DNA of 42,374 bases, taken from the IMG/VR virus record IMGVR_UViG_3300031576_000130, positions 1 through 42,374 of that record; one strand, written 5' to 3'. The position numbers and the translations under genes were made by a program. Under the pieces are notes generated by a model, which was not told where the DNA came from, ran no database searches, and saw nothing but the letters and a program-made list of their open reading frames with translations. The DNA comes from a virus. This document shows positions 2,321-42,374 of the stretch, piece after piece. How positions within the stretch are numbered: position 1 is the stretch's first letter; each line of letters opens with the position of its first letter.

Positions 2321-4232
2321 CCTGAACGACACCTCGCCAGAGAACGTCATCCGGATCTCGAAGCGGTACCTCGACCGCGGCGAGCTGGTGAAGAAGCGCC
2401 GGACGCGCAAGAACACCGAGAACTGGGACGCGTACGCCGGCGAGCAGGACTGGAGCCACAAGGCCGAGTTCCAGAGCCGCGAGACGACGCCCGGGTTTCC
2501 GATCGCCGTCGAGCAGATCGTCGGGACCTTCGAGCGGGCCCTGACCGACAACGACGAGTGGGGCTCCGCCGACGCGCCCGGGATCGGGAAGCCGTTCCTC
2601 GCCCCGTCGATGATCTGGGGGCTCCTGGTCCACTACCTCCAGCGGCTCTGGACGCCGGGGATGCGGCCGGAGACGACGTACGGAGTCCAGGCGTTCGTCG
2701 GGGACGCGGTCAAGCGCGGCATCCTCGAGGGCGTCGTCGTCGCCAAGGTCTTCCCGGTCCTCGTTCGCCGGCGGGAGCACCGGTTCAAGAAGCCGCCGAA
2801 GGGGCTCGCGCCGGGCGTGTACCCGGCGCACGACCTCGCCGGCGAGCGCGTCGAGCCCGTTGACGTCGACGAGGTCCGGCTCGCGATCGACCTGATCCCG
2901 TGGGAGGACTACTTCCGGGACCCGTCCCCCGCCCTCTCGTACGAGATACACCGGACCCGTCGCCAGCTGCACGAGCTCCGGGCGAACCCGGAGTACGACC
3001 AGGGCGCGGTCGACAAGCTCTACAGCCGGGCGGCCGACACGGTCAGCCAGTACGAGAAGCGGACTCGGGCCGGCGAGAACTACGTCGCCCCGGACCCGTA
3101 CGAGGTCGAGGTCTTCGAGGCGTGGGGCGACGTGATCGACGACCGGACCGGGGAGCGGCTCTTCGAGAACCACTTCTGGACCTGGTCGAACGATACACTT
3201 CTTCGGTCCCCGACGCCGAACCCATACTGGCACGGCCGGCGGCCGATCCTCGCCGCCCCGCTGATCCGGGTGCCTGGATCCGTCGTCCACAAGGCGCTCG
3301 CCGACCACGCCGTCCCCGTCTGGCGCGCGGCGAACGAGCTCGTCAACCTCGTCCTCGACGCCGCGATGCGGGGCACGTGGGGCGTCGGGCAGGTCCGGCC
3401 CGACCTGATGGAGTCGCCCGAGGAGATCGCCGACGGCATCCCCCAGGGGTACACGGCGGTCCTCAAGCCGAACGTCCCGCAGAACCAGAAGTTCTACGAG
3501 CGCGTCGACAACGGCGAGTCGTCCCCGGTCTCCCTCGACGCCCTGAACCGGGTCGAGAGCTACGTCAACGAGGCGCTCGCGACCCCGGACACGAAGCTCG
3601 GCCAGCTCCCTCCCCGCCAGGTGAAGGCGACCGAGATCGTCTCCGCGATGCAGTCGTCGGGCTCGCTCTTCGAGTCGCTCGCCGCCCGGTTCGAGGACAC
3701 GTTCCTCGAGCCGCTCTTCGAGCTCTGCTGGCAGCTGATCCTCCAGTACGCCGACGACTTCGTCCAGGCGGAGTTCGTCCAGATCCTCGGCCCCCGGCTG
3801 ACCCTCCAGCTCGACGGGCTCCGGCCCCGAGAGCGGTGGGCGCTCGTCCACCACGCGAAGTTCAAGGTCCGCGGCCTCCGCGGCGTCGCGTCCAAGGAGC
3901 GGACGTTCAACAAGCTGATGACGGTCTGGCAGCTGCTGTCCACGAATCCGCAGTTCGCCGACCTCTTCGGTCGGTCGAAGGACTACACGAAGCTGTTCGA
4001 CCAGACCCTGACCGCCTCCGGGATCGACCCCGAGTCGGTCGCCCTCGAGGAGGAGCCGGAGGGCGCCCCGGCGCCCGCGGAGTCCCCGCCCGGGACGATC
4101 GGCGGCGGCCAGCTCAACGCGGCCCTCCCCGCCTCGGCCGGCGCGTCGATGGCCGGTGAGGGCGCGGCCGCCGCGCAGGCCGCCGCGAGCGGCGAGGCCG
4201 AGTTCGCGCCGACGGCCCCACAGGCCGCCTAG
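2313..4232 (+). CDS. Portal protein (head-tail connector)
   Basis: This is a 639-residue protein expected to form the dodecameric portal ring through which DNA passes. The call rests on size, an acidic and aromatic-rich body, position directly after the terminase with an 8-base overlap, and position ahead of scaffold and capsid genes. The long helical middle section (about 120-560) suits portal stem and wing domains. The last 70 residues are Ala-, Pro- and Gly-rich and look disordered. No single diagnostic motif can be quoted, so the assignment leans on context and overall resemblance to podovirus connector proteins. Confidence 0.85.
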   Translation: MHDLNDTSPENVIRISKRYLDRGELVKKRRTRKNTENWDAYAGEQDWSHKAEFQSRETTPGFPIAVEQIVGTFERALTDNDEWGSADAPGIGKPFLAPSMIWGLLVHYLQRLWTPGMRPETTYGVQAFVGDAVKRGILEGVVVAKVFPVLVRRREHRFKKPPKGLAPGVYPAHDLAGERVEPVDVDEVRLAIDLIPWEDYFRDPSPALSYEIHRTRRQLHELRANPEYDQGAVDKLYSRAADTVSQYEKRTRAGENYVAPDPYEVEVFEAWGDVIDDRTGERLFENHFWTWSNDTLLRSPTPNPYWHGRRPILAAPLIRVPGSVVHKALADHAVPVWRAANELVNLVLDAAMRGTWGVGQVRPDLMESPEEIADGIPQGYTAVLKPNVPQNQKFYERVDNGESSPVSLDALNRVESYVNEALATPDTKLGQLPPRQVKATEIVSAMQSSGSLFESLAARFEDTFLEPLFELCWQLILQYADDFVQAEFVQILGPRLTLQLDGLRPRERWALVHHAKFKVRGLRGVASKERTFNKLMTVWQLLSTNPQFADLFGRSKDYTKLFDQTLTASGIDPESVALEEEPEGAPAPAESPPGTIGGGQLNAALPASAGASMAGEGAAAAQAAASGEAEFAPTAPQAA

Positions 4233-4242
4233 GAGACAGAGA

Positions 4243-4515
4243 ATGCCAACCCCTGAAGAGATCCGCCGCGGGTTCAGCACCGGGACCGCGCCGACCCCGC
4301 CGACGAGGCGGTTCGCCGACGCGCCTCCCGCTGTCCCGCCCGCCCCGCTGCCCGGAGCCGTCCCTCCGTCGAACCCCGGTCCATTCACCCCGCCGCCGGC
4401 TCCGGCCCCTCGGGGTCTCGGCCTGTCCCGTGGCGTGATCTCGTCCGAGACGAAGGAAGAGCGCCGCCGGCGCAAGATCGCTCGCGGCGAGCAGCTGACC
4501 CAAGAAGACCTGTAA
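4243..4515 (+). CDS. Proline-rich small head-region protein
   Basis: This is a 90-residue protein. The ATG at 4243 follows AGGAGA at 4231-4236, and longer in-frame starts inside the portal gene are rejected. The first 60 residues are Pro- and Ala-rich and probably disordered. The last 30 are a charged helix with the basic stretch KEERRRRKIARGE. It lies between the portal and the scaffold/capsid genes, so a minor structural or assembly role is likely. No family was recognised. Confidence 0.7.
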   Translation: MPTPEEIRRGFSTGTAPTPPTRRFADAPPAVPPAPLPGAVPPSNPGPFTPPPAPAPRGLGLSRGVISSETKEERRRRKIARGEQLTQEDL

Positions 4516-4525
4516 CGGAGGAACG

Positions 4526-5041
4526 ATGCCACAGCGCCCAGAGGACTACATGAGCACGAAGAACGTCGGCGGGAGCCGCAAGGGCGGGACCGACGCGACG
4601 TCGGGTGACCCGTTCGGGTACCTGAAGATCGGCCCGAACCACAGCTACCTCGGCCACTTCACGAGGGCGAAGTTCCTGGAGGAGGGGCACAACGAGCGCC
4701 GGCCCAAACTGCCGACGGCTGACCGGAACCTGGGTCGGAAGCTGACCGACACCTCCCCGACGCACGCGGTCGTCCGCGGGGTCGCGAGGCCGATCGACGT
4801 GATCGGTCGGAAGGCGGCAGCGGCCGCGATCCGCGGCGGAGACGTCAACGTCGCCCGGGAGCGCCCGGTGCTCGCCGCTCGGCTCGCCGCCAAGACCGAG
4901 CGTCGGGGTCTCCGGGCCGAGGGCGCGTCCGCTGCCGCGATCCGACAGAACCGCCGGGCTCTTCGTGACGTCGTATCGAGCGCACGGAAGGGTGCGGAGA
5001 GCCGCCGCAGCGAGCGTGCCGTCCGTCGCCGGACCTCCTAG
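4526..5041 (+). CDS. Basic protein of the head gene cluster, unknown function
   Basis: This 171-residue protein starts at an ATG preceded by GGAGGA. It is strongly basic, with Arg-rich helical segments from about residue 85 onward, and has no membrane segments or recognised motifs. The basic charge would suit contact with packaged DNA or an internal head role, which is inference only. It sits 4 bases before the next gene in the same tight head operon. Confidence 0.7.
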   Translation: MPQRPEDYMSTKNVGGSRKGGTDATSGDPFGYLKIGPNHSYLGHFTRAKFLEEGHNERRPKLPTADRNLGRKLTDTSPTHAVVRGVARPIDVIGRKAAAAAIRGGDVNVARERPVLAARLAAKTERRGLRAEGASAAAIRQNRRALRDVVSSARKGAESRRSERAVRRRTS

Positions 5042-10475: not shown

Positions 10476-12914
10476 GTGGCGTACGAGGGTCTAGTCGCCC
10501 CCCTCGTCGCCGGCCGCGCCGGGCAGGCCGCGCACGAGAACCGGCTCCTGTCGAGCTCGGCCGAGCTCTTCGACGCGCGCGGGGTCACGTTCGAGGACCG
10601 GCACGTCCGGAAAGAGGCCGGGGCGACGAACTTCGACGCGGCCGGAGTAGGCACCGCGCAGACGTTCACGGGAACGCTGAGCGCCAGCCGCCAGCACATC
10701 TCCGCGATCACCTCGAGCCTCGGGTCGGGAACGATCCTCCTCGTCGATACCGTCGTCGGCGACGCCGACACCTCCCCCCTCACGTTCCTGACCGGCACGG
10801 CCGCCGTCGGGAACGCGATGCTCGTCTCGGTCGCCCAGAAGACGGGCTCCGCGTCGACGATCACGGTAACAGACTCGAACGGTCACACGTACACCCAGCT
10901 CGCGAAGAAGATCGGCGGGACCGACGTCCCGCTCACGGTCGCGACGTTCGGTGCGATCTTGACGTCAGGGCTCCCCGCCGGCGGGACGATCACGGTCACG
11001 TCGACCGCCACCGGGTCTCTCGCCGCCGTCGCCTCCGAGTTCAGCGGCGTCGTCACGGTCTCCGATAGGTCGGCGACGGCCGTCGGGCCGACGCTCGGCG
11101 GGACCGCGATCACGACCGGCCCCCTCCCCCCGTCCCAGGCGACCCCCGTCCTCCTGATCGAGTCACTCGCGACGAACGGGTCGACCGCGGACACGCTGAC
11201 GCCGACGTCCGGGTTCACGAACACGAGCAAGCGGTCGAACTCCGCCCTAACGATGACGATCTTCCAGGCGTACCGGATCGACACGGTCGTCACCGTCATC
11301 ATCGCCGCGATCGACTGGTACTCCGGTCTCAGGATACCGAGCGGCGGGGTATTCAAGGCGGCGACGACATCGGGCTCGACGACGGTCACCGGGTCGGCCG
11401 GGACGCTCTGGACGACCGGGACCGAGGCGCAGCGGATCTTCAGCGGGGACACGATCGTCCTCTACAACGCGACGGACATGGAGTCGCGGGTCGTCTCGTC
11501 CGTCGCGAGCGACACGAGCCTGACGACGACCGAGACGTGGACGACGACCTTTACCGCGACCGACTACGTCGTCGTCCGCGGGAGCCGGTTCATCACGGCG
11601 ACGACCGGCGGGAACATCTTCAAGGAGCGGAACAGCGACCTCGACGCGGTGACCCTCGCGTCGAACCTGTCGAGGGTCGCCCGTCCCGGGAAGTTCATCG
11701 TCTGCGGCAAGGAAGACGGGAACCGAAACCGGAAGCTGATCTACGTCAACGGCTACAACGCTCCCCAAGGTCTCGTCGACGACGGCTCAACCATGTCGCC
11801 GATCTCGACGCCGAACGTAGACTGGGACGCGACGGCGACGAACGCGGCCGCCCGCCCCTGGAACGGCGTCGTCCACCGGAACCGCGTCGTCGTCGTCTGC
11901 CCGAAGGGGAAGGACCCGCACCGGCTGTACTACTCGGACCCGACAAACCACGGCGACTTCAACGGCGCGGGCGCGACGAGCCAGCGCGTCCGGTCCGAGA
12001 CCGGCGACGAGATCTGGGGCCTGACGTCGTTCCAGGGGGTCCTCTGGGTCTGGAAGTACCCGGTCGGGATCTTCTACATCGACGACGGGGATACGGACAC
12101 GAGCCTGTGGATCGAGCGGACGAAATCTCAGTCCGTCGGCTGTGCCCCGAGCCCGTTCTCGGTACTCACGATGGACGACGACGTCATCTTCATGTCGGCG
12201 ACCGGCGCGTTCCACATCCTGTCTGCCGTCGACACGCTCGGCGGCGTCCGGGCGTCCGACCTCTCCTGGCACCTCGGCCTGAACAAGTGGCTGCGCGACA
12301 ACCTGAACCTCGCCCGGCTGAACCAGGTCCTCTCCGTCTGGTACCCGCACAAGAAGGTCGCCCTGTTCGCGGTCCCGAGCGTCGGGAGTACGAGTAACGA
12401 TCTCGTCCTCCGCTGGGACTTCTCTGGTGTCGAGCAGGGCGAGCCGGCCAAGTTCTCGTACAGCGAGCGGGACACGCCCGACATGCTCGCCCTGAAGAAG
12501 GCCGCCGACGGCATCTTCAAGCCGGTCGCCGGCGAGGGCGTCTTCGTCAAGCTCCTCGATCAAGAAGCTCGGAACAAGGAGGGCGCGGCGTACACGGGGC
12601 GGTACCAGACGCCCCATCTCGACCTCTCCCACCTCGACGTGGCGCTCGCCTACCGACGGAAGCTATTCGAGCACCTCGAGCTGCTCATGGAGCCCGTCGC
12701 CGCGGGCACCCTAACGGTCGACGTCTACGTCGACAACGTCCTCAAGGAGACGCTCACGTTCGACGCGACCCAGCGCCGGCAGCGGAAGAAGCTGAACAGC
12801 GGCGACGGGTTTACGATCAGCCTCCGGGTGACGAACGAGGTCGTCGACGAGGACTTCAAGGTCCTCGCCCACCTCGTCTACTTCAAGCCCGGGAACGAGG
12901 ACCAGAACCGCTGA
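10476..12914 (+). CDS. Tail nozzle protein (tail tubular B-like)
   Basis: This 812-residue protein starts at GTG 10476, three bases after the adaptor stop. Residues about 65-330 are Thr/Ser/Gly-rich beta repeats that look like inserted Ig-like or adhesive domains. The C-terminal half has propeller-like segments: RKLIYVNGYNAPQGLVDDG, a DRNRV-type region and GLTSFQGVLWVWKYPVGIFY. These patterns are common in podovirus nozzle proteins that extend the DNA channel below the adaptor. The stop overlaps the next ATG (TGATG). Size and order support the call, with no catalytic motif expected. Confidence 0.75.
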   Translation: MAYEGLVAPLVAGRAGQAAHENRLLSSSAELFDARGVTFEDRHVRKEAGATNFDAAGVGTAQTFTGTLSASRQHISAITSSLGSGTILLVDTVVGDADTSPLTFLTGTAAVGNAMLVSVAQKTGSASTITVTDSNGHTYTQLAKKIGGTDVPLTVATFGAILTSGLPAGGTITVTSTATGSLAAVASEFSGVVTVSDRSATAVGPTLGGTAITTGPLPPSQATPVLLIESLATNGSTADTLTPTSGFTNTSKRSNSALTMTIFQAYRIDTVVTVIIAAIDWYSGLRIPSGGVFKAATTSGSTTVTGSAGTLWTTGTEAQRIFSGDTIVLYNATDMESRVVSSVASDTSLTTTETWTTTFTATDYVVVRGSRFITATTGGNIFKERNSDLDAVTLASNLSRVARPGKFIVCGKEDGNRNRKLIYVNGYNAPQGLVDDGSTMSPISTPNVDWDATATNAAARPWNGVVHRNRVVVVCPKGKDPHRLYYSDPTNHGDFNGAGATSQRVRSETGDEIWGLTSFQGVLWVWKYPVGIFYIDDGDTDTSLWIERTKSQSVGCAPSPFSVLTMDDDVIFMSATGAFHILSAVDTLGGVRASDLSWHLGLNKWLRDNLNLARLNQVLSVWYPHKKVALFAVPSVGSTSNDLVLRWDFSGVEQGEPAKFSYSERDTPDMLALKKAADGIFKPVAGEGVFVKLLDQEARNKEGAAYTGRYQTPHLDLSHLDVALAYRRKLFEHLELLMEPVAAGTLTVDVYVDNVLKETLTFDATQRRQRKKLNSGDGFTISLRVTNEVVDEDFKVLAHLVYFKPGNEDQNR

Positions 12915-13591
12915 TGGCCGCCCGGGGAAGCATCGACGTCAGCATGCTGACAAAGCTCCCGCTGATCGGCGGGCGCGGACCCCAGGGCGCGACCGGCGCC
13001 GCCGGCGCGAACGGGACGAACGGAACGAACGGGACGGACGGGAGCGTTCGGCGGCCCTTCCGGTCCGGTCAGCTGTACACGACTCCGGGGACGGCCCAGC
13101 TCACCGGAACGGCCGCGGTCTCGCTCGGGGTCGGCAACGCACGGATCCACCTGTTCAAGGTCGACATCACGACGACCTTCGACCTGTTCCAGGTGGGGAA
13201 CATCGGGACCTCGGGGACGCTCCTCGCCCGCGGCCTCATCTACTCCGTTACCGCCGCGACCTTGACACCGGTAGACCCCGTCGTCCTCGACACCGGGACG
13301 ATCAGCCTCGCGGGCGCCGCGGCGACGGCCGTGATCTCACAGTCGCTCACGCCCGGCTGGTACTACATCGGGCTGAACCTCGAGGGCAGCGGCGCCGCGA
13401 TCCTGTTCCGCGTCCCCGCCTGGGCCTCCTACTTCGATACCCCCCTGGGCGTGACGTCGTTCGCGACGGGGGCACCGAACGGCCGACTCCAGCAGACCGG
13501 GACGGCCGCCGGCGCGCCGGCGGCGGCCGGATACGCCCTGACGGCGACGACGCCGGAGCAGGGCGGGTCCGCGTGGCTGAGGGCGGCGTGA
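12914..13591 (+). CDS. Collagen-like virion appendage protein
   Basis: This is a 225-residue protein coupled to the nozzle gene. After a 20-residue N-terminal segment comes a short Gly-X-Y collagen-like run (GPQGATGAAGANGTNGTNGT, residues about 22-41), followed by a 175-residue beta-rich globular domain. Collagen-like trimers join attachment and receptor-binding domains in many phage fibres and capsid decorations. Trimeric tail or head fibre is therefore the likely role (inference). The start ATG 12914 overlaps the preceding TGA. Confidence 0.75.
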   Translation: MAARGSIDVSMLTKLPLIGGRGPQGATGAAGANGTNGTNGTDGSVRRPFRSGQLYTTPGTAQLTGTAAVSLGVGNARIHLFKVDITTTFDLFQVGNIGTSGTLLARGLIYSVTAATLTPVDPVVLDTGTISLAGAAATAVISQSLTPGWYYIGLNLEGSGAAILFRVPAWASYFDTPLGVTSFATGAPNGRLQQTGTAAGAPAAAGYALTATTPEQGGSAWLRAA

Positions 13592-14511
13592 CGACCTACC
13601 GCGGCGTCGTCAAGCCCGACGAGGACGTCCTCGCCTTCCTCCTCCGCCACAAGGAGCGGATCGGGGAGACGCCGCCGCTCGGGCTCTTCGTCGCCGAGCG
13701 GGCGCAGGGGGTCGTCGCCGCGCTCCTCGTCTGGACCGAGCCCTTCCTCCACGTCTCCGTGATCGTCGAGGGCGTCTCCGTCTTCGTCCTGACGAAGCTC
13801 GCCCGCTTGTTCGAGCGGTGGGCTGCCGGTCGCGGCGCGACCCGGTACGCCTTCTGCGTCCCGAGCGACGACTACGCGTACCGCCGGATCGTCGAGCACA
13901 GGGGAGCGATCCGCGGTGCGGTAGAGGACCGGTTCGTCTGGTACGTCCAGCCGATCCACCTCGCGGGAGAGCACACGCGAGAGCGGCCCGGCCCGGAACC
14001 GGACACGTTCCGCCGCTGGGAGGCGGCCGACGAGCGCTCCGTCACCCCGCTCGTCCGGGCGTTCCTCGAGGAGCACTACGCCGCGGGCGGGGACTACCCG
14101 CCGACCGACAAGAACGTCGCGGCCCTCTTCCGCCGCGGGGTCAAGGCCGGCGACGAGGGCGACCCGGCGCTGCTCGCGATCCGTGACGGCCGCCCGGTCG
14201 GGTTCGTCCTCTGGTGTCGAGTCCCCCCGGTCGATCTCGACCTTCGCGAGAGTATCTGCTGCGGGGTCGGGACGTACATCGACCCGGCGTACCGCCGCAA
14301 GGGGCTCGCGTCGGCTCTCCGGCTCGTCGCGACCGACGTCGCGCGGCACCAGGGGTACACCAGGGTCGACGGCGTCGCGCTCGACGCGCGGGGGCTGGCC
14401 GCCGGGAGGGCTGTCGGCGGACAGCCGAGCGGAACCTTCATGCGCTTGCCGATACGCACCGTAACGCCTACAGAACCGAGTACAACCGAGACACCGGAGC
14501 AAGTGGAGTAA
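13588..14511 (+). CDS. GNAT family acetyltransferase, probable two-domain
   Basis: This is a 307-residue protein. I place the start at GTG 13588, a GTGA overlap with the previous stop as elsewhere in this genome; GTG 13573 is also possible. The C-terminal half holds the acetyl-CoA-binding motif A, GVGTYIDPAYRRKGLASALR, around residue 225, with the R-x-x-G-x-A pyrophosphate loop. The N-terminal half (ending near DDYAYRRIVEHRGA) also resembles a degenerate GNAT fold, so it may be a tandem GNAT. Target is unknown. Genes of this type occur among virion genes of other podoviruses, so modification of a virion or host protein is plausible. Confidence 0.8.
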   Translation: MTTYRGVVKPDEDVLAFLLRHKERIGETPPLGLFVAERAQGVVAALLVWTEPFLHVSVIVEGVSVFVLTKLARLFERWAAGRGATRYAFCVPSDDYAYRRIVEHRGAIRGAVEDRFVWYVQPIHLAGEHTRERPGPEPDTFRRWEAADERSVTPLVRAFLEEHYAAGGDYPPTDKNVAALFRRGVKAGDEGDPALLAIRDGRPVGFVLWCRVPPVDLDLRESICCGVGTYIDPAYRRKGLASALRLVATDVARHQGYTRVDGVALDARGLAAGRAVGGQPSGTFMRLPIRTVTPTEPSTTETPEQVE

Positions 14512-20922: not shown

Positions 20923-20928
20923 CAGAAT

Positions 20929-20981
20929 ACTCAGCGTCCTGAGTAAAACGCCGTCGATCCCTCAGCGGGTCGACGGCGTTT
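20929..20981. terminator. Double hairpin, bidirectional terminator between convergent modules
   Basis: Two adjacent perfect inverted repeats are present: ACTCAG/CTGAGT (20929-20934 with 20939-20944), and a 12-bp stem AAACGCCGTCGA/TCGACGGCGTTT (20946-20957 with 20970-20981). The second is flanked by T-rich bases on either strand reading outward. It separates the plus-strand lysis genes from the minus-strand operon, whose last gene ends inside the stem (stop at 20962-20964). Confidence 0.85.
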
Positions 20982-21159
20982 CTGCTTCTGTCGTGAAGTC
21001 GAACCAGTCACCGATCGCGTTCATCACCTCGCGCTCGACGTTCTCGATCGAGCGGTCACTGAGCGGCGGCTCTTCGGAGTACTCCCTGTACCGTTGTAGG
21101 CCATAGGACACGCCTTGCTCGATCGCCATCTCTATGACGTTGTATACCTTTACGCGCAT
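20962..21159 (-). CDS. Small acidic protein, paralogue of the 24021 gene
   Basis: This is a 65-residue protein and the last gene of the minus-strand module. The stretch EQGVSYGLQRYREYSEEPPLSD resembles the EGFDYAFRYYSEFRPIKD segment of the 61-residue protein at 24021-24206, with a shared G-x-x-Y-x-x-x-x-Y-x-E/S core. The two are likely paralogues. Function is unknown. The last codons lie in the terminator stem. Confidence 0.65.
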   Translation of the reverse strand: MRVKVYNVIEMAIEQGVSYGLQRYREYSEEPPLSDRSIENVEREVMNAIGDWFDFTTEAETPSTR

Positions 21160-21445: not shown

Positions 21446-22174
21446 TCAGTGCGGCCTCCCGCAGATGCCACAGTCGCAGCGCGCCTCTGAGCCGACATCG
21501 GCCGCGCCCGTCGCGCACTCGAACGGCTCGTCCGTCAGCTGGCTCGCTTCTCTCAGCGCGCGGCTGATCTTCTCGAGGTGCTCCCCGGGTGTTCCGGCAC
21601 AGACGTTCGCTAGCTGGCCGGGGTACCGCTCGGCGACGGGCCGTGGCGCGGATAGGGATAGCGGCGCGGATAGGGATAGCGGCGCGGATAGGGTCTCGGC
21701 GGGGATGTACGTCTCGGCGCGCCCGGTGTAGACCTTCGGCTCGGTCAGCTCGGCGATCAGCTTCCCGGCGACCCCCGGCGTCGGCCTGTCGTCGACGAGG
21801 TTCCCGGTCGCCTTCGCGTCGAGGAGGATCGCCATGCACGCGGCCGCGTGCGCGACGTGCGGCTGGCCGGACTCGGGGTCGAGCTCCTCCCCGTCGAGGG
21901 CGGTGAGCAGGTGCCGCATCGCCGCGGCGACGTAGATCGAGTACCGGACCTTCTTCTGGCGCCAGTTGTATTTCCCGTACTTGGCCGCCCCGAGTGCCAT
22001 CACCTTGCTCAGGTAGAGGAGCGCCGCCGGCGGAACGAGGTCGAGTTGCGGTTTCGCGACGCCGAGGGCGTCCTTCGGGTTTATCCCTTCACCCTCGGCG
22101 TGCCGTACCACGACACTTCCGCAGGGCGATATCGTACAATTCGGCCCGCGGCTGTGCGAGCAGGTCATGCTCAT
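21446..22174 (-). CDS. DUF5664 / dATP-dGTP diphosphohydrolase-type protein
   Basis: This is a 242-residue protein from ATG 22174 with GGAGGA upstream. Residues 30-125 carry the family signature: NPKDALGVAKPQLDLVPPAA, a VMALGAAKYGKYNW motif, AAMRHLLTALDGEELDPESG and a final HVAHAAACMAILLDA helix. These His/Glu/Asp residues fit an all-alpha metal-dependent NTP pyrophosphohydrolase, and relatives (MazZ-like) trim the dATP/dGTP pool. The second half is a separate region with SAPLSLSAPLSL repeats and a CDCGICGRPH Cys-rich end. The call of activity is inference from the family name. PurZ, its partner in 2-aminoadenine phages, is absent here. Confidence 0.82.
   Translation of the reverse strand: MSMTCSHSRGPNCTISPCGSVVVRHAEGEGINPKDALGVAKPQLDLVPPAALLYLSKVMALGAAKYGKYNWRQKKVRYSIYVAAAMRHLLTALDGEELDPESGQPHVAHAAACMAILLDAKATGNLVDDRPTPGVAGKLIAELTEPKVYTGRAETYIPAETLSAPLSLSAPLSLSAPRPVAERYPGQLANVCAGTPGEHLEKISRALREASQLTDEPFECATGAADVGSEARCDCGICGRPH
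21645..21693 (-). repeat. 18-bp tandem repeat inside the DUF5664 gene
   Basis: The unit ggcgcggatagggatagc occurs at 21645-21662 and 21663-21680, followed by a 13-base partial copy to 21693. It encodes the Ser-Ala-Pro-Leu-Ser-Leu repeat of the linker, in frame. Confidence 0.9.
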
Positions 22175-22402
22175 CGTCTCTTCCTCCGCTTCTTCTGGTT
22201 CTCGTCGATTACGTACCGTAGCTGCTGCGTCTCTTTTCGGGTCGCGCACTGGATCAGCCGTAGTCCGAGGTGCGTCGCCTCGCGGCGTCGTCAGGAGAAT
22301 GCCTGTAGACCGAGCGGCCACCGACGAAGTGCTCGAGCGAGATGCGGCAGCTGTACGGTCGGTATTGCCGGAGGGTTCGCCGGTACCTTGTGTGTTCTTC
22401 AT
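22171..22402 (-). pseudogene. Frameshifted small gene between CitE and DUF5664 genes
   Basis: ATG 22402 overlaps the CitE stop (ATGA), and a TGA at 22171-22173 overlaps the DUF5664 start (ATGA), the coupling used throughout this operon. The interval is 232 bases, not a multiple of three. G/C-ending codons shift from one frame (EEHTRYRRTLRQYRPYSC then SLEHFVGGRSVYRHSPDDAA) to another (ATHLGLRLIQCATRKETQ then YVIDENQKKRRKRR). A single protein of about 77-80 residues interrupted by one or two indels explains this. The indels may be real or assembly errors. Function is unknown. Confidence 0.6.
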
Positions 22403-23238
22403 CACGCCTCCTTCAGAATCGCCCGAGCTTGTCGATCGACTGGGATGCCGACGACCAGCCCGTTCTCGTCGACCCAGACCTCGCCGAGCCTGGCCGCGTG
22501 CTGCGCGTGGATCCTCCCCGCCCACGCTCGCTCGATCTCACCCGGGCCAAACAGGTCGTTCGCGATCGGCACCTGGAGCGGGTGAATGCAGGCAGCCCCG
22601 GTGAAGCCGAAGCTCCGAGATCCGCGCCAGGTGGCCGTGACGTGACTCGAGTCGCGGACGTTGAAGCAGGTGTCGAGCGCCTGCTTCCCGAACGCGGCCG
22701 CGTAGGTGGCGAGCTTCTGCTTAGCGTAGACGAAGCGGGTGTTCGTGAGCGGGCCGTAGTCGATCCAGGAACCCCAGCGCCGATCGGAGACGCCCATCCC
22801 CGCAGCGAAGTCGGCGACCCCGAAGATGCCCCCGAGGACGTTCGGGAGGGCGAGGATCGAGCGGAGGTTGACGATCGCGCCCGGGGTCTCGATGACCGGG
22901 AGGAGCGGCACCGTGGCCGTCTCACCCTCGTACGTCATGAGCTCTCGCGCCTCGGTGATCTTCGGGACCACGAGGACGTCGAGCCGGCAGCCGGCGTCGA
23001 GGAGCGTACCCGCGTCCGTCGTGTACGGGTTGATCCGAACGGCGACGACCTGGGGGACGATCTTGCCGATCGAAGAGCGGAGATACGCGACGAGCGTCTC
23101 GAGGGCGTACGCCTTGTGGTGGGGCGGGACCGAGTCCTCGAGGTCGAACATCAGGCAGTCCGCGCCGGACCGAACGGCCTTCTCGTAGAGCGCCGGCTTG
23201 TGAGCCGGGACGCAGAGGAGTGAACGAATCCGTTTCAT
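22402..23238 (-). CDS. CitE/HpcH-type CoA-lyase or aldolase
   Basis: This is a 278-residue protein from ATG 23238 (ATGA overlap, AAAGGGGG upstream). It has the full TIM-barrel signature of citrate-lyase-beta-like enzymes: RSLLCVPAHKPALYEKA (5-21), GADCLMFDLEDSV (25-37), VRIN with Arg68, VPK (Lys93), VIETPGA with metal-ligand Glu117, FGVADFAAGMG with Asp143, and GFTGAACIHPLQV (211-223). The family cleaves or forms C-C bonds of CoA thioesters with Mg2+. The substrate is not predictable. It is rare in phages to my knowledge, and codon bias matches the phage, so it is not a recent bacterial contaminant. It is coupled to the DUF4406 gene. Confidence 0.88.
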   Translation of the reverse strand: MKRIRSLLCVPAHKPALYEKAVRSGADCLMFDLEDSVPPHHKAYALETLVAYLRSSIGKIVPQVVAVRINPYTTDAGTLLDAGCRLDVLVVPKITEARELMTYEGETATVPLLPVIETPGAIVNLRSILALPNVLGGIFGVADFAAGMGVSDRRWGSWIDYGPLTNTRFVYAKQKLATYAAAFGKQALDTCFNVRDSSHVTATWRGSRSFGFTGAACIHPLQVPIANDLFGPGEIERAWAGRIHAQHAARLGEVWVDENGLVVGIPVDRQARAILKEA

Positions 23239-23624
23239 GCGGCCCCCTTTTCGATGTCGTGTCGTATGCACTTCATCCGCCCCGCGACGAGCGTGTCGAG
23301 GCTGTAGTAAACCGGCTTCCCGATCTTCCCCGCGAACGCGACCTCTCGGTCCCCGCCGGCGGACGGGAGCGGGTTCCCGCGCTCGTCCGACATCCGGAAG
23401 ACGGCGTCACAGGCTTCGATGCACCGGAAGTCGTACTGCATCCAGTCCTCGTAGCTCCGCGGGGCGAGCATCTCCATGCCGAGCGCCTTCTCGTGGGGAC
23501 AGATGACGACGAACCCGAGGTCCATCAGCGTCGCCGCCGCCTCGATCCCGCGCCGGATGTTGACCGGGAAGTTGCCGCCGGTGGTCATCGGGCCGCTCAC
23601 GTAGACGATCATCGGTCGGGTCAT
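23235..23624 (-). CDS. DUF4406, nucleoside 2-deoxyribosyltransferase-like protein
   Basis: This is a 129-residue protein. ATG 23624 is set by the ATGA overlap. The N-terminus MIVYVSGPMT with GGNFPVNIRRGIEAA and the later SYEDWMQYDFRCIEACDAVF and GGDREVAFAGKIGKPVYY segments follow the small Rossmann-like fold of DUF4406 and 2-deoxyribosyltransferases, which bind a nucleoside and swap its base. The Asp and Glu in the expected loops are present. Actual activity is not known for the family. Position beside CitE-like and DUF5664 genes suggests nucleotide or base metabolism. Confidence 0.8.
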   Translation of the reverse strand: MTRPMIVYVSGPMTTGGNFPVNIRRGIEAAATLMDLGFVVICPHEKALGMEMLAPRSYEDWMQYDFRCIEACDAVFRMSDERGNPLPSAGGDREVAFAGKIGKPVYYSLDTLVAGRMKCIRHDIEKGAA

Positions 23625-24033: not shown

Positions 24034-24206
24034 CGCTCCTCCCCGACGTACTGCGCGAGTGCGGCCGCAGCTTCGATGTACGCCTCGCGCAGCCGGTGAA
24101 ACTTGCGATCCTTGATAGGCCGAAATTCGCTGTAGTATCGAAACGCGTAGTCGAACCCCTCGCTGTCGATCGTCGCGCGTACGTCGTCGAGTTCCTTGTC
24201 GGTCAC
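24021..24206 (-). CDS. Small acidic phage protein, paralogue of the 20962 gene
   Basis: This 61-residue protein has the core EGFDYAFRYYSEFRPIKDRK followed by FHRLREAYIEAAAALAQYV, a helical pattern I recall from many small phage proteins of unknown function. The start ATG 24206 overlaps the polymerase stop (ATGA). The related gene at 20962-21159 ends the same operon. Confidence 0.75.
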   Translation of the reverse strand: MTDKELDDVRATIDSEGFDYAFRYYSEFRPIKDRKFHRLREAYIEAAAALAQYVGEERCPT

Positions 24207-25996
24207 GCAGCCTCCGCGTAGTTGACGGCCGACGTCTTCACGTCGACGCGCGGCCGAAGTTGAAACTGATCGAAGTCCGTCATCGCCTCACAACACGTGC
24301 GGAGAATAGCCGTCTCATTCTCCGCAGGGTACTCGATAACGAGTTCGTCGTGACACTGAAGCAGCATACGCGCCCCCATCCTAGCAAGCTCTGGCTCGAG
24401 CCGCTGCATCGCGACCCGGATCATCTCGCCGACCGCACCCTGGATGACCCGGTTCCAGGCGGCGTACGGCCGGTCGCCGGGGTAGTGGCAGACCCGGCCG
24501 GTCCAGAGCCGGAGCGAACCGACCCCCTTCCACAGGTCCGAGTACGCGTACATCGCGCGCTTGATCTCCGGATAGAGATCGAAGAATCCGTGACGGACTT
24601 CGAACGCTCGGCGCGTCCCGGCATCGACATACCCCTTCATCGACGGAAACCACTCCTTCGCTCCGCCGCTCCAGCCCATCGAGAGCGCGATCCGCCATAC
24701 TCCGGCGCCGTACTGGATCATCAAGAAAAGGATCTTCGCCTGGTGCCTCGTGATCCTGAGACCCGTCGCCATCTCCTGGTAGATGTCCCGGGAGGCGTGG
24801 TAGGCGTCGAGCAGGGCAACCGACTTGCAGTAGCTGGCTCCCATCCACATTTCGGCCCGCTCGTAGTCGAGCTTGGCGAGCTTCATCCCCGTGCGGGGGA
24901 CAACCAACTGCCGGACCTGGTAGATGGCGTTCAGGTCGTCGTCGACGTGCGGGAGCGCCTGGAAGTTCGGACCGGAACACGACAAGCGGCCGGTCTTCGT
25001 CCCCCCGACATCGCTGGGGTCCCGGGTCAGGTTCAGCTGCGGGTGGAGGACGCCGGCCGAGTCGACGAGCTCGAGGATCGCGTCGTAGTACGCGGACTTC
25101 GCCTTCCCGAGCTTCTTGTAGTCGACGATCCCGCGCGCGAGCGGGTGACCGGAGAGGGCGAGCGTCGCCTCCTTGGCGTCCACCGTCCCGAGTAGCCTCG
25201 CGACCTGCTGCCACGAGTTCGGATTGAACATCGGGCCGGTCGTCTCCCGGATCGACTGGAGGAGATCGGCCTTCCGGGTCGCCGTGGATGCCGATAGCCG
25301 CCGGCACCGGTCGACGTCGATCGAGATACCGCCGACCTGCATACGGGCTAGGAGGAGGTTGTACGCGTTCATCTCGACAGCGAGCTTGGTCAGCCCCCAC
25401 TGCTCGAGCGCCGGCGCGTAGACCACCCGGAGGCGGCGCGGGAGGAGGACGTCGCCGCAGGCGTAGTCGGCGACCTCGCTCGCCGGCAGCCTCCAGAGGT
25501 TCCCCTTGCGCTCGCGGATCGACCGCATCTTGGGGAAGACCTCTCTCAGCCGGGCGTCCATCGCGTCCTTTGACGCGGCCGCGCCGGACCCGAGTCGCCG
25601 CGCGGCGATCGCGGCGAGCGAGAAGGACGCCTCGTTCTCGTCCATCAACAACGCGTCGATGATCCCGTCGCGCGTCGTCGCGGTCAGGCACCAGTCGCCG
25701 CCCGCCTCGTACGAGAGCATCGTCAGGTCGTATCGAAGGTTCCAGCCGCCGAGCGTCTTCCCCCTGAGCGCGTCGAGCAGATGTGGCAGGCGCTCTCCCG
25801 GGAGGTTCCCGCCGGTCTCGTGCCGAAAGGGGAAGTAGTCTGCCTCCCCATCGAGTCCCACCGCGACCCCGACCGCCCGGTCGCCTTTCCACGGGACCAG
25901 CCCGTTCGACTCGATGTCGACGTCGACAACGCCCTTGGGGTCGGCCCGGGACAGCCGCTCGAGGCGCGTGGCGACGGTGCGGTCGGTTACGAGCAT
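24203..25996 (-). CDS. polA: Family A DNA polymerase with 3'-5' exonuclease
   Basis: This 597-residue replicative polymerase lacks the 5' nuclease domain of bacterial Pol I. Exonuclease motifs: Asp27-x-Glu29 (DVDIES), Asn86/Asp90 (WNLRYD) and Tyr178/Asp182 (YACGD). Polymerase motif A has Asp377 (LDYERAE). Motif B runs Arg417, Lys421, Tyr429 and Gly430 (RHQAKILFLMIQYG). Motif C is His549-Asp550-Glu551. The residue eight after Arg417, equivalent to E. coli Phe762, is Leu425. That leucine state was linked with temperate phages in virioplankton surveys and agrees with the integrase here. It overlaps the HNH gene by 10 bases. Confidence 0.96.
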   Translation of the reverse strand: MLVTDRTVATRLERLSRADPKGVVDVDIESNGLVPWKGDRAVGVAVGLDGEADYFPFRHETGGNLPGERLPHLLDALRGKTLGGWNLRYDLTMLSYEAGGDWCLTATTRDGIIDALLMDENEASFSLAAIAARRLGSGAAASKDAMDARLREVFPKMRSIRERKGNLWRLPASEVADYACGDVLLPRRLRVVYAPALEQWGLTKLAVEMNAYNLLLARMQVGGISIDVDRCRRLSASTATRKADLLQSIRETTGPMFNPNSWQQVARLLGTVDAKEATLALSGHPLARGIVDYKKLGKAKSAYYDAILELVDSAGVLHPQLNLTRDPSDVGGTKTGRLSCSGPNFQALPHVDDDLNAIYQVRQLVVPRTGMKLAKLDYERAEMWMGASYCKSVALLDAYHASRDIYQEMATGLRITRHQAKILFLMIQYGAGVWRIALSMGWSGGAKEWFPSMKGYVDAGTRRAFEVRHGFFDLYPEIKRAMYAYSDLWKGVGSLRLWTGRVCHYPGDRPYAAWNRVIQGAVGEMIRVAMQRLEPELARMGARMLLQCHDELVIEYPAENETAILRTCCEAMTDFDQFQLRPRVDVKTSAVNYAEAA

Positions 25997-26580
25997 GGCG
26001 GGCCAGGGATAATGCTACGTGCAGGCCACCGACGTAGATACCGCGCGGCAGCTTCAAGATGCTCTGGCGTCACGCCTCGCCGTACAAGCCAGTAGTTGTC
26101 GCGCCAGCAGAGCAATCCGCGGACCGTAGCCGCAAGTCCATGTTGCCGCTCAAACTTTTTTGAGTGAAGATGATCGACCGAAAGATGGCGAAAGCGCCCG
26201 CGCGGCGGCCGGCCGCAGATCGCACATCGGCCGTCTTGCGCTGCAAGCAGTTGTAGGTACTGATCTTGCGTGATCCCGTATCGACTCTTGATGTTGCGCC
26301 AGTACGTCGCGTCGCTACCATGAGCTCGTTGTGCGCGCCTTTCTTTACGCGCTTGACGAAGAGACACAGCATTTCGCGTGTCGGATAACGCTGGAGCCCC
26401 GGGACGCCGCGCTCGTCCTTGAGCACGGCGGCGGGCACTAGCTGCTTTCGAGCTACACTCTCGGCAGTAATGCGCGCGCGTACTACGCGCCGGGTGCGGG
26501 CATCCGTCTTCGATACACTTCAACCGCACCCGATATGGCAGAACACTCAGGCACGGCGGCCGGCTAGTTGTCGACGACAC
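25987..26580 (-). CDS. Endonuclease VII-type HNH nuclease
   Basis: This 197-residue protein from GTG 26580 may start later, at the in-frame GTG before RLKCIEDGC. An N-terminal CxxC/CxxC ribbon (CIEDGCPH and HYCREC) is followed by the nuclease: YGITQDQYLQLLAAQDGRCA, CGRPPRGRFRHLSVDHLHS and VRGLLCWRDN. In T4 endonuclease VII the last motif usually has a second Cys (LCxxCN); here it is Asp, as in some homing-type relatives. Codon use is less GC-rich than the polymerase beside it, which suggests a mobile origin. Role may be homing or recombination-junction cutting. Confidence 0.85.
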   Translation of the reverse strand: MSSTTSRPPCLSVLPYRVRLKCIEDGCPHPARSTRAHYCRECSSKAASARRRAQGRARRPGAPALSDTRNAVSLRQARKERRAQRAHGSDATYWRNIKSRYGITQDQYLQLLAAQDGRCAICGRPPRGRFRHLSVDHLHSKKFERQHGLAATVRGLLCWRDNYWLVRRGVTPEHLEAAARYLRRWPARSIIPGPPCS

Positions 26581-32564: not shown

Positions 32565-32796
32565 GTGCGTTGAGCCTTCCTCGGAGGTTACGCGCGGTCA
32601 CGAGCAGCCGGCGCACGGTGCTGTCGCGTTCTATCTGCGCCTGGTTGAGTCCGCTGCGTCGGAGCGTGGCCGTCCTGTCCTGGAGCGCCCGGCCGGCGCG
32701 TCGCCACCGCTCCTCGAGCGACCACGTCGCCGGATGAGGCGACCCGGTATCCGGCCGCATCGCGCCGGTCTGCTGATCGTCGGTCGGGAGTTTCAT
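32557..32796 (-). CDS. Hypothetical basic protein, 79 residues
   Basis: ATG 32796 overlaps the integrase stop by ATGA. The helical basic stretch WSLEERWRRAGRALQDRTAT and NQAQIERDSTVRRLLV may be DNA-binding. Position next to the integrase would allow a recombination directionality factor, but no such family was recognised. Confidence 0.65.
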   Translation of the reverse strand: MKLPTDDQQTGAMRPDTGSPHPATWSLEERWRRAGRALQDRTATLRRSGLNQAQIERDSTVRRLLVTARNLRGRLNAHD

Positions 32797-33653
32797 CGGG
32801 TCACCCCTCTAAGGTCGCATGGATCGCCGGGCGAGTCAAGGCGGGACAGGACGTCGGTCGCCTCGTCGTCGCTCCGCCGGTCGTACTTGATCGTCGTCGT
32901 GATCGACGCGTGCCCCATCGCGCGCTGGATGTCGCGCGTGTCGAGCCCGCTCCTGCGGCACTCCGCGTAGAACGTGCGACGGAGGTCGTGCGGCGCTAGG
33001 ACAACGCCGACCTGGCGTGCGAGAGAGACCAGCGTGCAGTAAACCCCCGAGTCCGAGCGCCAGCGGAACACGTGCTCACGTTCCGGGCACGCGGTCTGCC
33101 ACGCGCGAAGGTACCGTAGCGTTCGCTCTGGCACTCGCAGCTTCCGCTCTTTGTTGCCCTTCCCGCGCACGAGTAGCGTCCAGACGCCGGCGAGGTCGTG
33201 TCGTCTCTGGAGCCCGGCCCATCGGAGCCCGGCGAGCTCGGATCGACGGAGCCCGAGCCCGGCCGCGACGGCGACGAGCGCCGCGTGCTCGAGCGTCGGT
33301 GCCCCCTGGAGTAGCAGCTCTACCTCAGACCAGGCGAGTGCCCTTCCCCTCCCGACCCGGCTCCCCCGGATCGGCGGGAGGGCAGCGAGTAGCCGCACGT
33401 GCTGGTCCCATGACATGAGATTGAGCCGCCAGCACGCGCGGATCACTTCCCGGACGGCGGTAAGTCGGCGGTTGCCGGTCGTCGGCGCCACGCTGGTCGC
33501 GATACGCTGGCGCAGGTCGGTAGCCGTCGCGGCGTCGAGCGTGTGCCACGGGGCGCCCTCGGCGAGCGCTGCCGCGATCTTGAGGTCGCTCCCGATCACT
33601 CGCCGGGATGACGCCGCGAGCGAGCTTAGGTAGTGTGAGACGGGGTCGGGCAT
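32793..33653 (-). CDS. int: Tyrosine recombinase (phage integrase)
   Basis: This is a 286-residue protein. ATG 33653 is chosen for GAGGAG nine bases upstream and because earlier in-frame starts overlap the neighbour. The catalytic set is complete: Arg136 (GLGLRRSEL), Lys165 (RGKGNKE), His222 and Arg225 (PHDLRRT), His248 (MGHASITT) and Tyr257 (IKYDRR). The N-terminal 95 residues are a SAM-like core-binding domain. This is the main evidence for a temperate life. No attachment site was recognised beside it; the tRNA lies 4.5 kb away. Confidence 0.94.
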   Translation of the reverse strand: MPDPVSHYLSSLAASSRRVIGSDLKIAAALAEGAPWHTLDAATATDLRQRIATSVAPTTGNRRLTAVREVIRACWRLNLMSWDQHVRLLAALPPIRGSRVGRGRALAWSEVELLLQGAPTLEHAALVAVAAGLGLRRSELAGLRWAGLQRRHDLAGVWTLLVRGKGNKERKLRVPERTLRYLRAWQTACPEREHVFRWRSDSGVYCTLVSLARQVGVVLAPHDLRRTFYAECRRSGLDTRDIQRAMGHASITTTIKYDRRSDDEATDVLSRLDSPGDPCDLRGVTR

Positions 33654-33838
33654 CGCTCCTCGCCGCGCTGTTGCGCGTCGGTACACGGGGTCTCCCGCCG
33701 CTCTCGCAGGAGGTCCGCGTCGTGTTCGGCTCGTTTCTTGAACGCTCGCGGATCGATCGCGAGCTTCTTCGGCCGCCATGCCGGCGCCCTTTTCACGGCG
33801 AGCGCCAGGAAGAGGCGCCATAGGGATAAAGGCCTCAT
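33626..33838 (-). CDS. Small basic protein upstream of integrase
   Basis: This 70-residue protein starts at ATG 33838 (ATGA). The first 20 residues (MRPLSLWRLFLALAVKRAP) are weakly hydrophobic and basic. The rest is charged with a His/Thr-rich end. It overlaps the integrase start by 28 bases. Signal-like or membrane-surface location is possible, and function is unknown. Confidence 0.6.
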   Translation of the reverse strand: MRPLSLWRLFLALAVKRAPAWRPKKLAIDPRAFKKRAEHDADLLRERRETPCTDAQQRGEERCPTPSHTT

Positions 33839-34044
33839 GGAAGTTGCGCAAGCTCCTGCTGAGTGAGCGGCGTTTCGTCGCTCGCGGCTGCGCGGGGGTT
33901 AAACGCGAACCATTCGGCGGCTCTCCTGCTACCAGTGCGTGCGAGTACGTCGGTATAGACGTCGTGTCGTCGTACTGGTAATCCCCCGTATCGAATGACG
34001 TCGTTCATGAGGTCGTCGAGAAAACGTCGCTTCCGCGGTCTCAT
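33835..34044 (-). CDS. Hypothetical protein, 69 residues
   Basis: Set by ATGA overlaps at both ends. A basic N-terminus (RPRKRRFLDDLMNDVIRY) is followed by VYTDVLARTGSRRAAEWFAF, perhaps a small helix-turn-helix-like fold. No family was recognised. Confidence 0.65.
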   Translation of the reverse strand: MRPRKRRFLDDLMNDVIRYGGLPVRRHDVYTDVLARTGSRRAAEWFAFNPRAAASDETPLTQQELAQLP

Positions 34045-38114: not shown

Positions 38115-38187
38115 TGCGGAGTAGCGCAGCGGCAGCGCGCCGGGCTCATAACCCGGAGGTCGCGTGGTTCGAGTCCCGCCTCCGCAT
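38115..38187 (+). tRNA. tRNA-Met (CAU), initiator-like
   Basis: The acceptor TGCGGAG pairs fully with CTCCGCA (seven pairs, U1-A72). The D stem is GCGC/GCGC with GG in the loop, and the anticodon stem is CCGGG/CCCGG with loop CTCATAA (CAU). The three G-C pairs at 29-31/39-41 and the weak 1-72 pair are initiator hallmarks. The T stem GCG-T-GG against CCCGC has one extra T (bulge) beside a standard TTCGAGT loop. CCA is not encoded. It lies directly after the stop codon of the preceding gene. Confidence 0.85.
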
Positions 38188-38274
38188 CTCTACGGCATCC
38201 GCCCCCTTGGGTCTGGCACACCCTTAACAGTGCGTCACGGGGCGTAACCCGGCCACACCCAGGCCGGATGGGTA
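38188..38274 (+). ncRNA. Structured intergenic RNA segment
   Basis: Several short inverted repeats lie between the tRNA and the terminator, including CCGGCC/GGCCGG (38249-38254 with 38262-38267, 7-base loop) and GGGT/ACCC near 38209-38223. No gene is open here. The segment may be a tRNA 3' trailer with processing signals, an attachment region or a small RNA ended by the adjacent terminator. Confidence 0.4.
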
Positions 38275-41801: not shown

Positions 41802-42316
41802 TGGCGTTCCTCTACACGAGTACGAACAATGCGACGGTCACGGCGACAACGACGGAAGGGACCCTCCTCGCTCCGGGTAATGGGGTTCTCACACTACCCG
41901 GCGGTGAGCTAACGGTCGGAACGCTCCTCCGCATATCCGTCCGTGGATTCTTCGTCGGGGTCGCGCTCACGCCGACCCTACAGCTCCGCGTGCGAGTGAA
42001 CGACGGGACGACTAATCACGTGATCGGAGACACAGGAGCGCAGGTGATGGGCGTCGGTTCGGTCGGCCGCGGGTTCAGTATCGACTTCGGCTTCGTCTAC
42101 ACCGCCGTCGGGGGGTTTGGGGCGATCAAGGCGGAGGGTCGTGCGATCATAGCGCTCACGGCGACGACAGCGGCCCCCTGGGACATGGCGAACGGCGGAG
42201 TTGGCCTGATCGACACGTCCGTCGCCAACACCATCGACGTCACCGCTCAGTGGAGCGCGGCAGCGGGTAACTCGATCCGTGCGCGCGTCTCGACAGTCGA
42301 AATCGCCAACACATAG
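41801..42316 (+). CDS. Virion-type beta protein downstream of the fibre gene
   Basis: This is a 171-residue protein coupled to the fibre gene. It is Thr/Val/Gly-rich with strands throughout (ATVTATTTEGTLLAPGNGVL, LLRISVRGFFVGVALT, LQLRVRVNDGTTNHVIG). It uses A/T-ending codons more than the fibre gene. Phage genes in this place often form a baseplate or fibre cap, and no family was recognised. The final 105 bases lie in the terminal repeat. Confidence 0.75.
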   Translation: MAFLYTSTNNATVTATTTEGTLLAPGNGVLTLPGGELTVGTLLRISVRGFFVGVALTPTLQLRVRVNDGTTNHVIGDTGAQVMGVGSVGRGFSIDFGFVYTAVGGFGAIKAEGRAIIALTATTAAPWDMANGGVGLIDTSVANTIDVTAQWSAAAGNSIRARVSTVEIANT

Positions 42317-42374
42317 GAGAGTTACGATGCCGTTCACGACCAAACAGCGCGACCAACTCTTCGCTATCTTCCTC
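42211..42374. repeat. Terminal direct repeat, right copy
   Basis: This matches bases 1-164 except for c at 42248 against a at 38. It closes the map: the gene beginning at 42327 continues at 165. Confidence 0.95.
42327..42374 (+). CDS. Start of the small protein continued at 117-413
   Basis: The first 16 codons (from ATG 42327, AGGAG upstream at 42315-42319) are identical to those of the gene at 117, cut off by the window edge. Same gene, not a second copy. Confidence 0.9.
   Translation, partial: MPFTTKQRDQLFAIFL

Follow-up and report, generated by a model that had tools for sequence, protein, structure and literature searches.

A divergent phage member of the CitE-like superfamily with a conserved barrel active site and a glycine at the lid-acid position

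CoA-type C-C lyases act where acetyl-CoA, pyruvate and glyoxylate are exchanged, and a phage equipped with such an enzyme of its own would handle central carbon directly. The question whether such phages exist is raised by a gene located on the minus strand (positions 22402..23238) of the 42,374-nucleotide IMG/VR virus record IMGVR_UViG_3300031576_000130, the whole of which is hereinafter called the window. An initial annotation made from the sequence alone described this gene as an integral phage gene for a CitE/HpcH-type lyase with intact catalytic residues, of a kind that is rare in phages. The predicted product (P0001, 278 aa) is a TIM-barrel lyase of the CitE-like (HpcH/HpaI) superfamily according to profile, PDB and structural model matches, and the analysis described here addresses the origin of the gene, the state of its active site and the reaction that the protein might catalyze.

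The genome can be considered closed at ~42,210 bp because the last 164 bases of the window (42211-42374) repeat the first 164 (1-164), with a single mismatch. The plus strand encodes a terminase-like protein, an SU10-type portal, a tail-fibre-like protein, a lysozyme and a capsid-like protein related to proteins of Vibrio and Streptomyces phages, and the minus strand encodes a DNA polymerase A, endonuclease VII, an exonuclease, a primase-polymerase/helicase and an integrase. The lyase gene belongs to the same minus-strand operon as the family A DNA polymerase (24203..25996, identified by profile matches). Its upstream partner (23235..23624, minus strand) encodes a DUF4406 protein similar to nucleoside 2-deoxyribosyltransferases, also identified by profile matches; the downstream gene (21446..22402, minus strand), the start of which overlaps the lyase stop codon, encodes a protein with a match to the dATP/dGTP diphosphohydrolase N-terminal domain (PF18909); and a terminator-like hairpin recognized in the sequence (20928..20997, minus strand) closes the operon. 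If the downstream gene starts at 22402, a low-complexity N-terminal stretch precedes the diphosphohydrolase domain; a later ATG near 22174 could serve as the start instead.

The lyase open reading frame is intact, with an ATG at 23238, a stop codon at 22404-22402 and a good ribosome-binding site, and it overlaps both of its neighbors. The ATGA reported for both ends is present at the upstream junction, where the start codon overlaps the DUF4406 stop (23238-23235), but at the downstream junction the two genes share a single base (TGATG, 22404-22400), with AAGGAGG ahead of it. The leave-one-out codon score of the gene (0.470) falls between those of the DUF4406 gene (0.490) and the DNA polymerase gene (0.412), which confirms the phage codon bias noted previously. 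Given the closed genome, the surrounding phage genes, the overlapping junctions and the matching codon use, the lyase gene is an integral part of the phage.

The protein is a member of the CitE-like superfamily, with homology far above chance. Residues 5-220 match the Pfam profile HpcH_HpaI (PF03328; E=1.4e-23, 83.8 bits against a cut-off of 25), and this assignment stood in the search for other families; the top sequence matches in PDB are RipC (3qll, 8e-24) and the CitE-like protein 1sgj (9e-23), followed by malyl-CoA lyases. The AlphaFold model, obtained for a single chain from a ten-sequence alignment (mean pLDDT 83.5), consists of a TIM barrel and a helix-hairpin-helix lid. A Foldseek search initiated with this model returned malyl-CoA lyase (8e-20 for 4l9y), CLYBL, (S)-citramalyl-CoA lyase and CitE as the top matches; the TM-score with 1sgj, by target length, is 0.86, and RipC is also among the proteins closest to the model. 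The family named in the initial annotation is therefore correct, but none of the specific functions within it can be transferred. The best NCBIfam model is the RipC equivalog NF038242, which matches over the full length with 106.7 bits, below the cut-off of 375, and the citrate lyase beta subunit equivalog TIGR01588 scores 57.7 bits against a cut-off of 443.4; the C-C_Bond_Lyase profile (PF15617) yields a weak match (E=2.9e-4, 20.5 against a cut-off of 28.4). Because the equivalog cut-offs are missed and a core element of the catalytic machinery is missing (see below), we do not assign the protein as CitE, RipC or malyl-CoA lyase and consider it a phage protein that has diverged deeply within a known superfamily.

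The active site within the barrel is conserved. The signature segments and residue numbers given in the initial annotation are all exact, namely VRIN with R68, IETPGA with E117, FGVADFA with D143 and GFTGAACIHP at 211-220. An alignment with the malyl-CoA lyase of Rhodobacter sphaeroides, for which the roles of Arg76, Glu141, Asp168 and Asp299 have been described (PMC3832036), equates Arg68 (codon 23035..23037, minus strand), which contacts the substrate and its hydroxyl, with Arg76, and the two Mg2+ ligands, Glu117 (22888..22890, minus strand) and Asp143 (22810..22812, minus strand), with Glu141 and Asp168, respectively. The second shell is present as well (D32, E34, D35), with E34 and D35 matching the water-holding Glu44/Asp45 of the CitE-like core (PMC3832036). 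Altogether, 23 of the 25 near-invariant positions of the cellular relatives are retained, the two departures being R46L and D264G. Thus, the claim of intact catalytic residues holds for the barrel, where neither metal ligand is lost, but not for the C-terminal lid.

In malyl-CoA lyase, a lid Asp (Asp299 or Asp318) contributed by the neighboring subunit has been proposed to protonate the enolate, and this residue is described as conserved in malate synthases and throughout the CitE-like superfamily, thioesterases having Glu instead (PMC3832036). In the phage protein, the lid (22405..22539, minus strand) retains its fold in the AlphaFold model, with a helix at 234-251, a short hairpin and a helix at 265-277, these parts of the single-chain model being only moderately confident (pLDDT 60-75). 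The alignment with 4l9y, in which chain position 320 corresponds to native residue 299 by offset count, places Asp299 on Gly264 (codon 22447..22449, minus strand). Among 61 cellular homologs, this position is occupied by D in 52, E in 7 and G in 2, that is, by an acid in 59/61. The lid is altered at Gly264, its helices and the basic residues at positions 14 and 20 are retained, and the N-terminal segment PAHKPALYEKA is similar to PGSRPALFEKM in malyl-CoA lyase. The loss of the lid acid could also mean that the lyase activity has been lost.

The protein was compared with known members of the superfamily. The malyl-CoA lyases of R. sphaeroides (4l9y) and Methylobacterium extorquens (5ugr) are the best Foldseek matches and share the barrel, the C-terminal lid and equivalents of R68, E117, D143, D32, E34 and D35; unlike these enzymes, to which it is about 26-27% identical, the phage protein has Gly264 in place of Asp299, a shorter insertion after the D143 strand and no accompanying pathway genes. 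The CitE-like protein of Deinococcus (1sgj) has the same domain architecture and length, but the phage protein lacks the lid Asp, and no CitD or CitF family member was detected among the scanned window proteins (part of the ORFs), the neighbors being DUF4406 and dGTP_diPhyd. RipC of Yersinia pestis (3qll), a (S)-citramalyl-CoA lyase (see also 8khl), is the best sequence match and differs in its lid Asp and in its gene neighbors. Rv2498c of Mycobacterium tuberculosis and human CLYBL share the fold and the Mg2+/Arg site (PMC6689899) but are only 23-26% identical to the phage protein, which lacks their lid acid. The C-C_Bond_Lyase family is linked to tellurite-resistance systems, and the partners typical of such systems were not seen in the window.

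The rarity of this family in phages, suggested by the initial annotation, was corroborated in several databases. No PHROGs family matches the lyase, BFVD contains no CitE-like structure (the best TM-scores, about 0.5, are to generic TIM barrels), and tblastn searches of INPHARED with three CitE-like queries yielded only bacterial citrate/CoA operons and no genuine phage gene. Where the neighbors of an INPHARED match were inspected, the match proved to lie in a bacterial operon, of citrate lyase or MaoC/acyl-CoA genes, within a record that is mis-labelled or chromosomal; the annotation of AFYI01000001 is that of a Salmonella citrate-lyase operon. The records MT835692, MT835693, OR846603, OR845935 and OR850963 contain bacterial citrate-lyase/acyl-CoA operons and are probably mis-labelled bacterial contigs. 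Scans of IMG/VR, which employed exact degenerate motifs of the lyase and also of the polymerase and so give a lower bound, detected host-type CitE genes and a single true phage gene, in contig L037 (IMGVR_UViG_3300005830_000129). Of the other matches, those in L009/L039 and L010/L036 are host genes at prophage edges with MaoC and aldehyde dehydrogenase neighbors, that in L040 lies at the end of its contig and falls into the same host-type clade, and the remaining pattern matches encode no CitE. The same polymerase and lyase motif scans of IMG/VR found no close relatives of the window phage, and a literature search for phage CitE, HpcH or K01644 as an auxiliary gene returned nothing useful. The family is, then, very rare in phages.

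The L037 gene (9929-10675) lies among tail genes in a contig that also encodes a P22-type portal and capsid. Its 249 aa product is about 30% identical to the window lyase and resembles it in phage-gene surroundings, barrel motifs and the Gly at the lid-acid position, but its lid is shortened, poorly predicted and without a hairpin, and most of the lid and the N-terminal basic residues are missing. The gene directly precedes a GNAT acetyltransferase ORF (ending at 11139), no DUF4406 gene lies next to it, and the CitE-like gene and a GNAT are all that the contig and the window have in common; in the window, the GNAT related to that of L037 (29%) is encoded in the tail region (13573-14511). Lid-Gly proteins are also encoded on actinomycete plasmids, in L004 from Amycolatopsis (3983-4834), the best plasmid-borne match to the window protein (36%), and in L122 from Streptantibioticus (2917-3798). 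These genes lie near an MFS transporter gene, possibly within secondary-metabolite clusters, and one of them adjoins a gene for MaoC, a usually CoA-dependent family.

In the phylogenetic tree, the window protein falls outside every cellular clade with good support, on a long branch of 1.6 changes per site, and the best identities found are 36-39%; the lyase is not a recent acquisition from any host sampled. Grouping the window and L037 proteins, both of which are long branches, is compatible with the data (p-AU 0.35). Unlike the window protein, L004 and L122, which have the same Asp to Gly replacement, form a clade nested among Asp-lid enzymes; a common origin of the window and actinomycete lid-Gly proteins is disfavored, the forced grouping being weakly rejected (p-AU 0.032). 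This small clade probably lost the lid acid separately, and losses of the acid with retention of the barrel site have thus probably occurred repeatedly. Because the two phage proteins and the actinomycete clade without the acid keep the remaining active site, the necessity of the lid acid proposed for the CitE-like superfamily is testable, and the lid glycine offers a clean test.

Which reaction, then, might the window protein catalyze? The reading we favor, with a probability of roughly 0.55, is that it is a phage-borne, Mg2+-dependent, CitE-like C-C lyase or aldolase that is expressed together with replication and nucleotide genes and has an altered proton transfer. Under the proposed mechanism, Mg2+ held at the predicted E117/D143 site would bind the 2-oxo-acid or 3-hydroxy-acid end of the substrate, Arg68 would help to deprotonate the substrate hydroxyl, and the C-C bond would break or form via an enolate, in the way suggested for malyl-CoA lyase; the step assigned to the lid Asp might be taken over by water or by a different residue in the altered hairpin, or might be needless with a different substrate. 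Since this proton step must be handled otherwise, it is improbable that the protein is an ordinary lyase of citrate, citramalyl-CoA or malyl-CoA. Such an enzyme would most likely serve to tap a small host metabolite pool, a 2-oxo acid or an acyl thioester, during phage DNA replication. A more far-reaching and tentative version is that CitE-like lyases of phages form a class of their own, which gave up the lid acid and took on a new reaction in the service of replication, with a different route for the proton or a substrate that is not a CoA compound and may be linked to a nucleotide.

It appears doubtful that the protein is a canonical beta-hydroxyacyl-CoA lyase (malyl-, citramalyl- or HMG-CoA) drawing off a CoA metabolite of the host, with Asp257 or Glu258 of the slightly longer hairpin substituting for the lid acid. 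The nearest solved structures are CoA lyases, the helix-hairpin-helix lid is predicted, the N-terminal segment is similar to that of malyl-CoA lyase, and the bacterial lid-Gly subclade includes a member encoded beside MaoC; given the retention of the lid helices and basic residues 14 and 20, CoA use is possible. This reading has to be reconciled, however, with the conservation of the lid acid both across the superfamily and in the present alignment, the failure of the CitE and RipC equivalogs, the L037 homolog without the basic residues and most of the lid, and a neighborhood in which no CoA-transferase or hydratase was seen. Because these equivalogs score far below their cut-offs and changes affect the lid, the part that binds pantetheine and provides the acid, we regard CoA-lyase activity as no more than a candidate function. 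A nucleotide-linked or sugar substrate, processed in a small pathway with the DUF4406 and dATP/dGTP-pyrophosphohydrolase-like neighbors, for example to make or break a modified nucleotide precursor, is unlikely: the overlapping genes on either side belong to nucleotide metabolism, and the loss of the acid that serves acyl thioesters would suit a non-CoA substrate, but the pairing with DUF4406 occurs in one genome only, the neighbor in L037 is a GNAT, and no known base-modification gene was recognized among the proteins scanned. Moreover, DUF4406- and PF18909-type proteins occur in many phages, since each has PHROG families of its own, whereas the lyase has none.

The absence of the lid acid, the long branch and R46L are also what one would expect of a descendant that has lost catalysis and persists as a binding protein or a regulator of host metabolism, but the retention of every Mg2+ ligand, of the Arg and of the second shell in so divergent a sequence suggests selection on the active site and makes such a descendant quite improbable. 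A host gene at a prophage edge or a mis-assembly, the explanation for the other IMG/VR and INPHARED matches except L037, has a negligible chance of applying here, where phage genes lie all round and the nearest cellular homolog found is less than 40% identical; host contamination is ruled out by the circular closure, the overlaps on both sides and the codon use.

Other features of the genome bear on the biology of the phage. A PADLOC search gave no defence match. The tyrosine integrase (32793..33851, minus strand; profile and sequence matches) indicates that the phage is probably temperate, and a phage-borne tRNA-Met (CAT) is located at 38115-38188. The endonuclease VII gene (25987-26580) has a codon score of -0.327, compared with 0.187 to 0.604 for the other scored genes, and may be a recent arrival or a mobile element.
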